DNA from: a bacterium HR28
Lineage (GTDB): Bacteria > Chloroflexota > Chloroflexia > Thermomicrobiales > Thermomicrobiaceae
Direction of reading: 5' to 3'
Assembly: GCA_002898255.1 (NCBI GenBank)
Contig: BEIE01000005.1
Location: forward strand, 62,001-126,000
Length of the DNA stretch: 64,000 bases
In this document: in pieces, positions 57,079 to 59,521 of the stretch
How positions within the stretch are numbered: the first letter of the stretch is position 1
Layout: each line of letters starts with the position of its first letter
The notes under the pieces: model-generated
The model's database searches: none
What the model was told of the DNA's origin: nothing
The model's input: the letters and a program-made list of their open reading frames with translations, nothing else
Position numbers and translations under genes: made by a program

Positions 57079-58005
57079 ATGCAGGGACACTTGACCGAGC
57101 GTGGTCTCGCAATCCTCCAAGAGATTTCCGAAGTCTGGCCATCCGCTGCACCGGCACGCATTCGTCCGGTTTATGACGACCTGCGAACAGCTTTGCATAC
57201 GCCGGACGTGCCGTTCGCGTTCCGTTTCCTGGCACACTGGCCGCCGTACCTGGCCTACGCCGTTCGTCAGTTCAGTCCCTTCGTCCGCTCACTCGCTTTC
57301 GAGGATGCTGCCGATACGCTCCGTGCCGAAGCGGCGTCGGCACTGGCTCAGACGCCGCAGAGTCCTGCCTTCGAGCCGGTTCGCGCGCTTGTCTTGCGTG
57401 AGCACTACCTGGCTCCCAAGGTATTGCTCATCCTGACTGCCTTTGCGGTAGGACTCCGCGGCCGGACCAGCGAGGCTGCACCGCCTCTGGGCACGACGCT
57501 GCCGACCCCGGAACCGATTCCGGTACGACCGGCTGAGCTCCCGCGTGCACTCGACGAGCGGATCGTACCCCTGCCAGAAATTGGCCTGATAAGCGACAAG
57601 GCACAAGCGCTGCTTGACGAACTCGCTGCACTGCGCGGCATTCCGTCTCTTGACGACTTCAGCCGTGCGCTCGCCGTACAGGATCTCCGCGCCCTCAGCG
57701 CGCTGAACGCGTTACGGCGAACGCTACCTGCGGACCTCTTGGCCACGGTCCGACGCCAGCTTCTCGAACTGGCGGACCGAGCTATCCGGCGTTTGACGCT
57801 GCCCGGCAGCAAGGTGCTCCCCGACTTCATGGTGCCGAACTCCGCGCTGCCGGACATCGAGGCTGCCGTTACCGCACTACAAGCGATCGCGCTGGAAGTC
57901 CTCATCGATGCCACGCTGGGTCGTGTGGCCATGGACGGTGCGAGTGCTGCACAACGCTCCCCCTACCCGATCACCGTGGGGGCACAACAGGAAACAGGCG
58001 CGTGA
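57079..58005 (+). CDS. DehI-like group I haloacid dehalogenase-family protein
   Basis: A 308-residue helical protein. Two repeats about 130 residues long each have an R-x-x-Y or L-L-x-E helix followed by a P-x-Y-L helix (AHWPPYLAYAVRQFSPFVRS), the pattern of DehI. DehI hydrolyses 2-haloacids, and the family contains many proteins of other or unknown role. I cannot confirm the catalytic Asp, so function is tentative. The ATG at 57079 follows GAGGAG. Its 3' end overlaps the convergent CcdA-type gene by 35 bases. Confidence 0.55.
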   Translation: MQGHLTERGLAILQEISEVWPSAAPARIRPVYDDLRTALHTPDVPFAFRFLAHWPPYLAYAVRQFSPFVRSLAFEDAADTLRAEAASALAQTPQSPAFEPVRALVLREHYLAPKVLLILTAFAVGLRGRTSEAAPPLGTTLPTPEPIPVRPAELPRALDERIVPLPEIGLISDKAQALLDELAALRGIPSLDDFSRALAVQDLRALSALNALRRTLPADLLATVRRQLLELADRAIRRLTLPGSKVLPDFMVPNSALPDIEAAVTALQAIALEVLIDATLGRVAMDGASAAQRSPYPITVGAQQETGA

Positions 58006-58831
58006 ACGGCTCTGGCCAAGCTGCAGTTGTCAAGTAATAGGCCGCGAGCAGAATCAACACGATCGCAGACCAGCGTCGCAGCATGGCCGCGGTCGCCCTA
58101 GCTCGCGCACGAACCGCTGCCCCACTCCGTCCCGACAGTGCCACAATGCTCGCAAGGCCGAGAACGAAACTCAGCGCAGCCACTGCGAAGGCAACGAGGG
58201 CCCAGCGAGTACTGAGTAACGCACCAGTGTGCATGGCCAGACCGGCCACGATTGGCCCCGTTCAGCCGAACCCCGCTACGCTATAGCCGATACCACCCAA
58301 TACTGCTTGCCCGAACGAAGCTACCCCCGTTCTCCGGACAATCTGACGTCCCCATCGACTCAGCCAGCCAAGTGGGAATGTCCAGACACCGATTTGCGCG
58401 GCTGCCAATGCAAGCAGAACCAGGCCGACAAGTGTCCGTAAGAGACGGCCAGGAAGACTGGGGAATGTCACTCCCACCAGGATCTTTCCCGCGCCAAGTC
58501 CCACCAGTATCCCAAGGACGGCAAAGAAGGTGCTTGCTCCAATAGCAACTCCGAGGACACGCCAATATAACCCACCTTGGGGTTGGGGCCTTGACACAGT
58601 CGCGCCGGTACCAAAAGTCGCCAGTAAGAGGGGGAAAGAGCAGGGGGAAAACAAACTTGCCAAGCCAGCAAGAACAGCGAGCGGGAAAACCAGCCCGACA
58701 TCGAGCGGGGGTAATGCAAATCGCGGATAGTGCACGTAGGCCAACCAGTAGGCAAGGAGAGCCACCATACCAACAAGGAACGTCGCGATCACGAACATGA
58801 ACAGGGTTCTCCAGTCTGTAGCTCGCCTCAT
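57971..58831 (-). CDS. CcdA/DsbD-beta-type membrane protein, predicted selenoprotein
   Basis: Moves reducing equivalents across the membrane through two redox residues in different helices. The full frame is 287 codons with an in-frame TGA (58264-58262) as codon 190. Cys64 lies in FSPCSFP (helix 2) and the TGA in VAGFG-TGA-TGPIVAG (helix 5), where the family has Cys: spacing 126, close to the Cys163/Cys285 of DsbD. Seven membrane segments are predicted. A GGUCU-loop hairpin follows the TGA. I read the product as 286 residues with Sec190. The alternative is a nonsense mutation, but coding continues in frame with full membrane character for 96 codons. The ATG at 58831 is used; a GTG at 58849 is possible. 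Confidence 0.82.
58230..58264 (-). promoter_or_regulatory. bacterial SECIS-like hairpin for Sec190
   Basis: After the UGA come 18 bases, ending in UGGCC, then the loop GGUCU (58243-58239) and GGCCA (58238-58234). A C-G and G-U pair can extend the stem. In E. coli fdhF the GGUCU also begins at base 19 after the UGA. Some of this sequence also encodes V-A-G-L, so part of the match could be coincidence. Confidence 0.75.
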
Positions 58832-58967
58832 CGTGTCTACCCCCGCCACACTGATACCGACCGGCGCCGCGTGGTCCGCATCTCATGGTCTGACTGCGGA
58901 GAGAGATATCAATGGAAACCACTCGTCTATCATTCGTGCATGAACAGGAGCTCAGGAAGTTGATTTG

Positions 58968-58987
58968 ATTATACCCCTTGGGGGTAT
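58968..58987. promoter_or_regulatory. CsoR/CstR-like operator and promoter of the CcdA-type gene
   Basis: The palindrome ATACCCC-N3-GGGGTAT (58971-58987) matches the form of CsoR/CstR-family operators. On the minus strand it contains TATAAT (58973-58968), the -10 of the CcdA-type gene. The site also lies about 20 bases before the osmC start, so one regulator could control both. The regulator is not in the window. Confidence 0.65.
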
Positions 58988-59005: not shown

Positions 59006-59521
59006 GTGGATATCCGAACACTCCAACGGCCGCTCAAGCAACGCTATCGCGAGGAACCTGACGCAGCACGCATCACCTTACGCGCGGTAGCACAGCAGTT
59101 CGACTCGCCACTCCGTTGCCGCATCGAGACGACCGGCGGCACAGTGATCAGTGAAGCTCATCCCGGGGTTGGCGGGCCGGGGACGGCAAGCTGCTCCGGC
59201 GATCTCTTGCTCGCTGCTTTGGCAGCCTGCGCTCAAATCACCTGCCAGATGGTCGCCAACGCTCTTGCCATCCCCATCGAGCACGTCAGCGTGACAGCCG
59301 AAGGTGATCTCGACCTTCGCGGCACGCTCGGCCTCTCGCGTGACGTTCCGGTGGGCTTCCAGACGATCCGCCTCTCGATCGATCTTAGAGCCCCAGAGGC
59401 AACACCGGAACAGCTCGCGAGTCTCCGCGAGAAGACCGAGCAGTTCTGTGTGATCTACCAGACTCTCAGGCAGCCACCGGAAATTACGGTGCACTGGCCG
59501 AGCAATTCCACTCAGCCGTAG
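59006..59521 (+). CDS. OsmC/Ohr-family thiol peroxidase-like protein
   Basis: A 171-residue protein with the OsmC fold. Two cysteines are conserved (CSGDLLLAALAACAQITCQM, about 64-82), the redox pair that reduces organic hydroperoxides or persulfides. The GTG start at 59006 has GGGGG 7 bases upstream. It is divergent from the CcdA-type selenoprotein and shares the operator. The cellular thiol for it is unknown. It overlaps the convergent RraA-like gene by 10 bases. Confidence 0.85.
   Translation: MDIRTLQRPLKQRYREEPDAARITLRAVAQQFDSPLRCRIETTGGTVISEAHPGVGGPGTASCSGDLLLAALAACAQITCQMVANALAIPIEHVSVTAEGDLDLRGTLGLSRDVPVGFQTIRLSIDLRAPEATPEQLASLREKTEQFCVIYQTLRQPPEITVHWPSNSTQP

Follow-up and report, generated by a model that had tools for sequence, protein, structure and literature searches.

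A CcdA-like membrane protein with a predicted selenocysteine in place of its second redox cysteine

CcdA-type proteins carry electrons across membranes by way of two cysteines. The selenoprotein TsoB was reportedly defined by Haft and Tolstoy in 2025. CcdA is absent from an inventory of prokaryotic selenoproteins dated 2026, which covers 119 families and subfamilies and has as its nearest entry TsoB, described as a rhodanese/DsbD fusion-like protein (PMC13188914). Bacterial SECIS (bSECIS) hairpins are defined there by a loop of 3-9 nt with G in the first two places, a stem of 4-16 bp, a distance of 16-37 nt from the UGA and a folding energy of at most -7.5 kcal/mol (PMC13188914). Membrane proteins of the COG2836 type, which combine HMA and DsbD_2 domains, are found under the control of CsoR (PMC4938975).

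The locus described here came to notice through a first-pass annotation of the DNA, which knew of no described selenoprotein of the CcdA family. The inventory agrees, and no such protein was found among openly available papers that mention both "selenoprotein" and "CcdA".

A CcdA-like frame with an in-frame UGA

The window, by which we mean the whole 64-kb stretch of DNA that was analysed, carries a CcdA-like gene on the minus strand (57971..58831) that encodes 286 residues when UGA190 is counted as the predicted selenocysteine (Sec). Its ATG start lies at 58831, and a GTG at 58849 is a possible alternative. Between 58831 and 57971 the frame contains no stops other than the TGA at codon 190 (58264-58262) and the terminal TGA, as the first-pass annotation had described. 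Its further claims, that the TGA stands exactly at the second redox cysteine of the family and that Cys64 is present, also hold. Codon 190 (58262..58264, minus strand), in the context AGFG-U-TGPIVAGL, falls in the column of the second redox cysteine of CcdA, both by comparison of homologues and by hhalign alignment onto canonical CcdA. Cys64 (TGC, 58640..58642, minus strand), in the motif SPCSFPL, falls in the column of the first.

The relationship with CcdA is supported by profile-profile comparison and by fold. A profile of the Sec proteins (A1) aligns with canonical CcdA in hhalign with a probability of 98.9% and an E-value of 3.8e-17, with Cys64 and Sec190 placed on the two cysteines of CcdA, and the same profile retrieves DsbD_TM proteins. 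An AlphaFold2 model of the window protein, computed from an alignment that included CcdA rows, has a pLDDT of 81. The best PDB match of this model in Foldseek is CcdA 5VKV (probability 1.00, E 0.15; TM 0.63 by target and 0.52 by query, again for a model with CcdA rows in its input), and the other matches listed have probabilities of at most 0.51. Searched alone against the PDB with HMMER, A1 found no CcdA. A second profile, A3, finds 5VKV with an E-value of 2.8e-29, a match that we do not count as independent because A3 includes CcdA rows. NCBIfam 20.0 gave no meaningful match to the A1 members, and no Pfam model matched the window protein or the individual Sec proteins scanned, which do not reach the cut-off of DsbD_TM (PF02683). 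The Cys-containing sister proteins of G297 and G326, in contrast, narrowly pass this cut-off. The family is thus best placed as a sister branch of CcdA within the DsbD_TM superfamily, rather than as CcdA proper. Because its genes are read as two broken open reading frames, current protein libraries miss it.

The bases 3' of UGA190 read ACGGGGCCAAUCGUGGCC-GGUCU-GGCCAUG and form a candidate bSECIS hairpin, CGUGGCC-GGUCU-GGCCAUG (58232..58250, minus strand; loop at 58239-58243). The loop begins at the 19th base after the UGA, a position that the first-pass annotation had likened to that in Escherichia coli fdhF; the fdhF gene of MG1655 (NC_000913) does carry GGUCU there. A SECIS prediction had been proposed as a check, and the published bSECIS ranges accommodate the element in every respect, with a 5-nt GGUCU loop, a 7-bp stem, an 18-nt distance and a folding energy of -10.7 kcal/mol for the 19-nt hairpin. 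The window contains 1748 TGAs when its two strands are counted together, and codon 190 is the single one that has GGTCT 18 nt downstream and a stem of 5 bp or more. No Rfam family matched the region. The folding energy of a 53-nt region is only weakly unusual (z -1.7), and the case for a SECIS rests on conservation.

Five hairpin bases (U17, G22, G23, U24 and U26) do not vary in a set of 16 genes plus the two fdhA genes described below. Three of them, U17, G23 and U24, are contacted by SelB in fdhF. In an alignment that includes the fdhA rows, the 7-bp stem is paired in 91% of cells, and this pairing is lost on sliding by one base; the covariation score of the stem is 0.303, compared with 0.141 in shuffles (0 of 500). 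The fdhA rows supply the double changes seen in the inner stem, such that codon choice is the stronger signal within the family itself. The loop-side codons GCC and GGT are fixed in all 15 genes; GGT makes up 19% of the Gly codons in those genes, yet occupies the loop Gly codon in 15 of 15. As the genes are related sequences, no exact probability attaches to this fixation.

The presence of Sec genes, likewise proposed as a check, is borne out by the genome from which the window derives. We found tRNA-Sec (73 bits; ARAGORN anticodon tca), selA (549 bits), selB (365 bits over the frame) and selD (360 bits), the last with an in-frame TGA of its own. Two formate dehydrogenase fdhA genes (L106 and L108) also contain an in-frame TGA, followed in each case at 18 nt by GGUCU on a stem of 6-7 bp, and hence the genome's own SECIS elements match that of the CcdA-like gene in spacing and loop. 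Insertion of selenocysteine at codon 190 is very probable, and has about as much support as sequence comparisons can give. Elsewhere in the genome, a thioredoxin-like open reading frame (L090; G000:C1:257264-257581, minus strand) has an in-frame UGA within a UxxC motif (WKTD-U-RGC). It has no match in Pfam or NCBIfam, and is a probable further selenoprotein.

Conservation and decay among relatives

Matches occur in 13 of 60 relatives. The UGA occupies the same column (G-x-G-U-TGPI) in all 15 readable clade homologues compared, down to 32% identity, and intact copies with 32-49% identity in the same genus, in other genera and in other families retain it in the same motif. A scan of GTDB genomes adds metagenome-assembled genomes (MAGs) with the same UGA that are labelled Anaerolineae, Anaerolineales, Actinomycetota, Armatimonadota and Acidobacteria. 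Such labels can be wrong; each of these five distant MAGs has a good tRNA-Sec (59.7-73.5 bits). Among 61 genomes, tRNA-Sec scores above 60 bits in 11 of the 13 with a UGA copy, and the two that have no clear tRNA-Sec are 62% and 84% complete. For comparison, tRNA-Sec is present in 23 of the 48 genomes that have no UGA copy (p 0.018, with kinship ignored).

A search for homologues with Cys or TGA at the site had been suggested at the outset, and every readable homologue indeed has Sec (UGA) or Cys there, save for an Arg in one decayed copy. The Cys homologues are those of G297, G326 and an archaeal MAG, and the GGUCU hairpin is absent from the DNA of all three. The first two have a tRNA-Sec, and the archaeal MAG has none above the cut-off. 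In a tree built with the codon-190 site left out, the Sec proteins form one clade (support 96/90), the Cys rows are its sister (98/92) and canonical CcdA stands apart (100/100), so that a single switch between Cys and Sec suffices to explain the distribution.

The first-pass annotation had named other stops or frameshifts around codon 190 in close relatives as grounds for doubt. The window copy is intact. Neither this objection nor the other two that the annotation had listed applies, with the qualification that three of six same-genus genomes (G002, G003 and G005) carry copies decayed by frameshifts, stops and loss of Cys or Sec, and that the draft copy of G006 is damaged by an internal TAG and a frameshift. 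The selenoprotein is therefore dispensable in this genus. The decayed loci are L012/L075 in G003, L016/L076 in G005 and L019/L078 in G002; G003 and G005 retain the OsmC neighbour and the promoter palindrome beside the decayed copy, and their genomes still have tRNA-Sec. When G001 and G006 serve as outgroups, the window branch shows 8, 2 and 7 changes at the first, second and third codon positions, and the G003 branch 12, 14 and 4. The deficit at second positions on the window branch has a p value of 0.024 (0.069 in a pooled test), and these small numbers suggest that the window copy is under constraint.

Gene neighbours and possible functions

An OsmC-family gene (59006..59521, plus strand; PF02566, 72.7 bits) is divergent from the Sec gene across a shared spacer throughout the window's genus, and is likely to be co-regulated with it. 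Its product has two cysteines and is a weak relative of OsmC_like_Se (NF041052; 40 bits, below the cut-off of 95). The spacer contains the palindrome ATACCCC-CAA-GGGGTAT (58971..58987), a candidate CsoR-type operator that overlaps a TATAAT (58973-58968) of the Sec gene. A similar palindrome is kept at the same spacer in G001, G003, G005 and G006, and none would be expected by chance in the window. Another stands immediately 5' of a gene for a copper-type CsoR (C-x24-H-x3-C), which in the window's genome is followed by copA. A search at the Sec gene for a simple sigma-70 promoter containing both hexamers found none. A further copy of the palindrome, ATACCCCCTGGGGGTAT, is located at L089:4622 (G000:C4:4622), about 1.5 kb from the tRNA-Sec gene.

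In other relatives a MerR-family regulator adjoins the Sec gene, and because all MerR matches fall below every curated cut-off, no metal can be named. An HMA protein is encoded within about 100-450 bp 3' of the Sec gene in G010, G014, G019 and G020, where an in-frame UGA stands at its first metal-binding Cys (UxxC), with a GGUC hairpin after it. This HMA protein (L031:5464-5829, L030:1730-2104, L032:1752-2123 and G020:C428:494-847, respectively) has an N-terminal membrane stretch and the motif GM[TG]-U-xSCAGAV, and is a second predicted selenoprotein of the cluster. The window genome has no such HMA-Sec gene. A more distant HMA protein with an in-frame UGA (EGMGFT-U-SxCAA) occurs at L123 (G008), L124 (G016), L125 (G018) and L126 (G013), in a genus that yielded no Sec-CcdA match. 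The Cys form of G297 lies in a cluster with the order MerR, HMA, CcdA-like, DUF7482. A DUF7482-domain gene recurs 3' of the CcdA-like gene (scored in L040 and L079, and recognised by inspection in L036 and L037). In the window, a convergent open reading frame of 308 residues (57079-58005, plus strand), kept as a neighbour in the genus, shares 35 bases with the 3' end of the Sec gene and weakly matches DehI, with a score of 21.9 bits that is below cut-off. Neither a thioredoxin-like nor a cytochrome c maturation partner was found beside the Sec gene. With relatives in several bacterial groups that share the UGA and adjoin metal-response genes, the gene looks like a real and not yet catalogued selenoprotein family.

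The elements of the explanation that we favour that are supported by sequence are the conservation of the UGA, the SECIS, the Sec machinery, the family and the site. Beyond these, we infer Sec insertion, topology, electron transfer, partners and metal regulation as follows. SelB would decode UGA190 as selenocysteine by way of the GGUCU hairpin. The product would be a membrane protein with the CcdA fold and seven predicted helices, its Cys64 and Sec190 standing where CcdA has its two redox cysteines. By analogy with CcdA and DsbD, this pair would most likely form a reversible Se-S bond and hand reducing equivalents through the membrane to outer-side partners of the thiol or metal-binding type, as part of a soft-metal/thiol stress response. 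Taken as a whole, this account has in our judgment a somewhat better than even chance of being correct.

We also weighed a nonsense mutation and the recoding of the UGA to a different residue, and rejected both. If the UGA were an ordinary stop, the locus would be a pseudogene or encode a truncated protein of 189 residues, as the decayed copies of G002, G003 and G005 might lead one to expect. This is very improbable given that 15 homologues share the UGA with the frame open beyond it, that the hairpin is fixed at the level of codons, that the Sec machinery is complete and that the window copy has 2 second-position changes compared with 14 in the decayed G003 copy (p 0.024). Reading of the UGA as a different amino acid, through suppression or a changed code, is more improbable still. 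An alignment by itself cannot name the residue, but we found no support for such decoding: TGA also terminates the same gene, the sister clade has Cys at the site, tRNA-Sec and SelB are present, and the fdhA SECIS elements of the genome are hairpins of the same kind.

A more serious competitor accepts a genuine selenoprotein and assigns it a different task, that of a permease or ligand relay for soft metals, with Cys64 and Sec190 binding an ion such as Cu(I) or Hg(II) in the membrane and exchanging it with an HMA carrier. MerR-family regulators beside the gene, the downstream UxxC-containing HMA protein of four relatives, the MerR-HMA-CcdA-DUF7482 cluster of the Cys form and the CsoR-type palindrome at both the candidate promoter and csoR-copA are all consistent with this role, and the neighbours (metal regulators, HMA, OsmC and DUF7482) fit metal transfer equally well. 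Moreover, the CsoR regulon includes membrane proteins with HMA and DsbD domains (PMC4938975), and CcdA-annotated "mercury transporters" occur in actinomycetes (PMC12195606). However, these cited metal roles are annotations, the subthreshold MerR matches leave no metal nameable, the window genome lacks the HMA-Sec gene, and CcdA, whose fold and two reactive positions the protein shares, is a proven electron carrier. We rank the electron relay first for this last reason, and hold the metal relay to be a tentative though credible alternative. A bolder version, a two-selenoprotein soft-metal relay of the CcdA-fold Cys/Sec pair and an HMA carrier (with Sec in some relatives), in which a CcdA branch turned from electron to metal transfer, seems rather unlikely. 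Kinship favours Se-S electron chemistry and gene context favours soft-metal handling; since the neighbours point to the latter, "electron carrier" would be one of two live functions. It is also possible that both roles are real, for example through reduction of metal-blocked outer thiols. The family links the use of selenium to soft-metal response genes, and a natural Sec branch of CcdA beside a Cys sister branch makes the contribution of selenium inside a membrane carrier directly testable.

Comparison with described systems

The bSECIS of E. coli fdhF shares with that of the CcdA-like gene the UGA, the 18-nt spacing, the GGUCU loop and U17, G23 and U24, and differs in stem sequence and host protein. 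TsoB (NF045694) resembles the window protein in being named both DsbD-like and a selenoprotein (PMC13188914), but its model spans 572 positions with a rhodanese and has the motif UxxxxU with two Sec residues. No A1 member, the window protein included, matches the TsoB model, and a search of the window's genome with this model did not pick out the CcdA-like gene. Proteins of the COG2836 type, compared by description, share a DsbD-type membrane part and links to HMA and CsoR, with no Sec reported for them (PMC4938975). MerT_CopZ_Se (NF045683) and UxxU_metal_bind (NF041115) exemplify Sec in soft-metal proteins; by name they are not of the CcdA fold, and they are related to the window protein through context, in that some CcdA-like relatives have an HMA partner with Sec.

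The closest likeness is to CcdA and the DsbD transmembrane domain (PF02683; solved structure 5VKV). The window protein departs from CcdA in its extra N-terminal helix, its separate clade, its lack of a direct Pfam match and its metal-type neighbours, and in having Cys64 and the predicted Sec190 where CcdA proper has two redox cysteines. Nonetheless, it has the fold in common with these carriers, together with two reactive positions in corresponding helices and a GPIL motif after the second.
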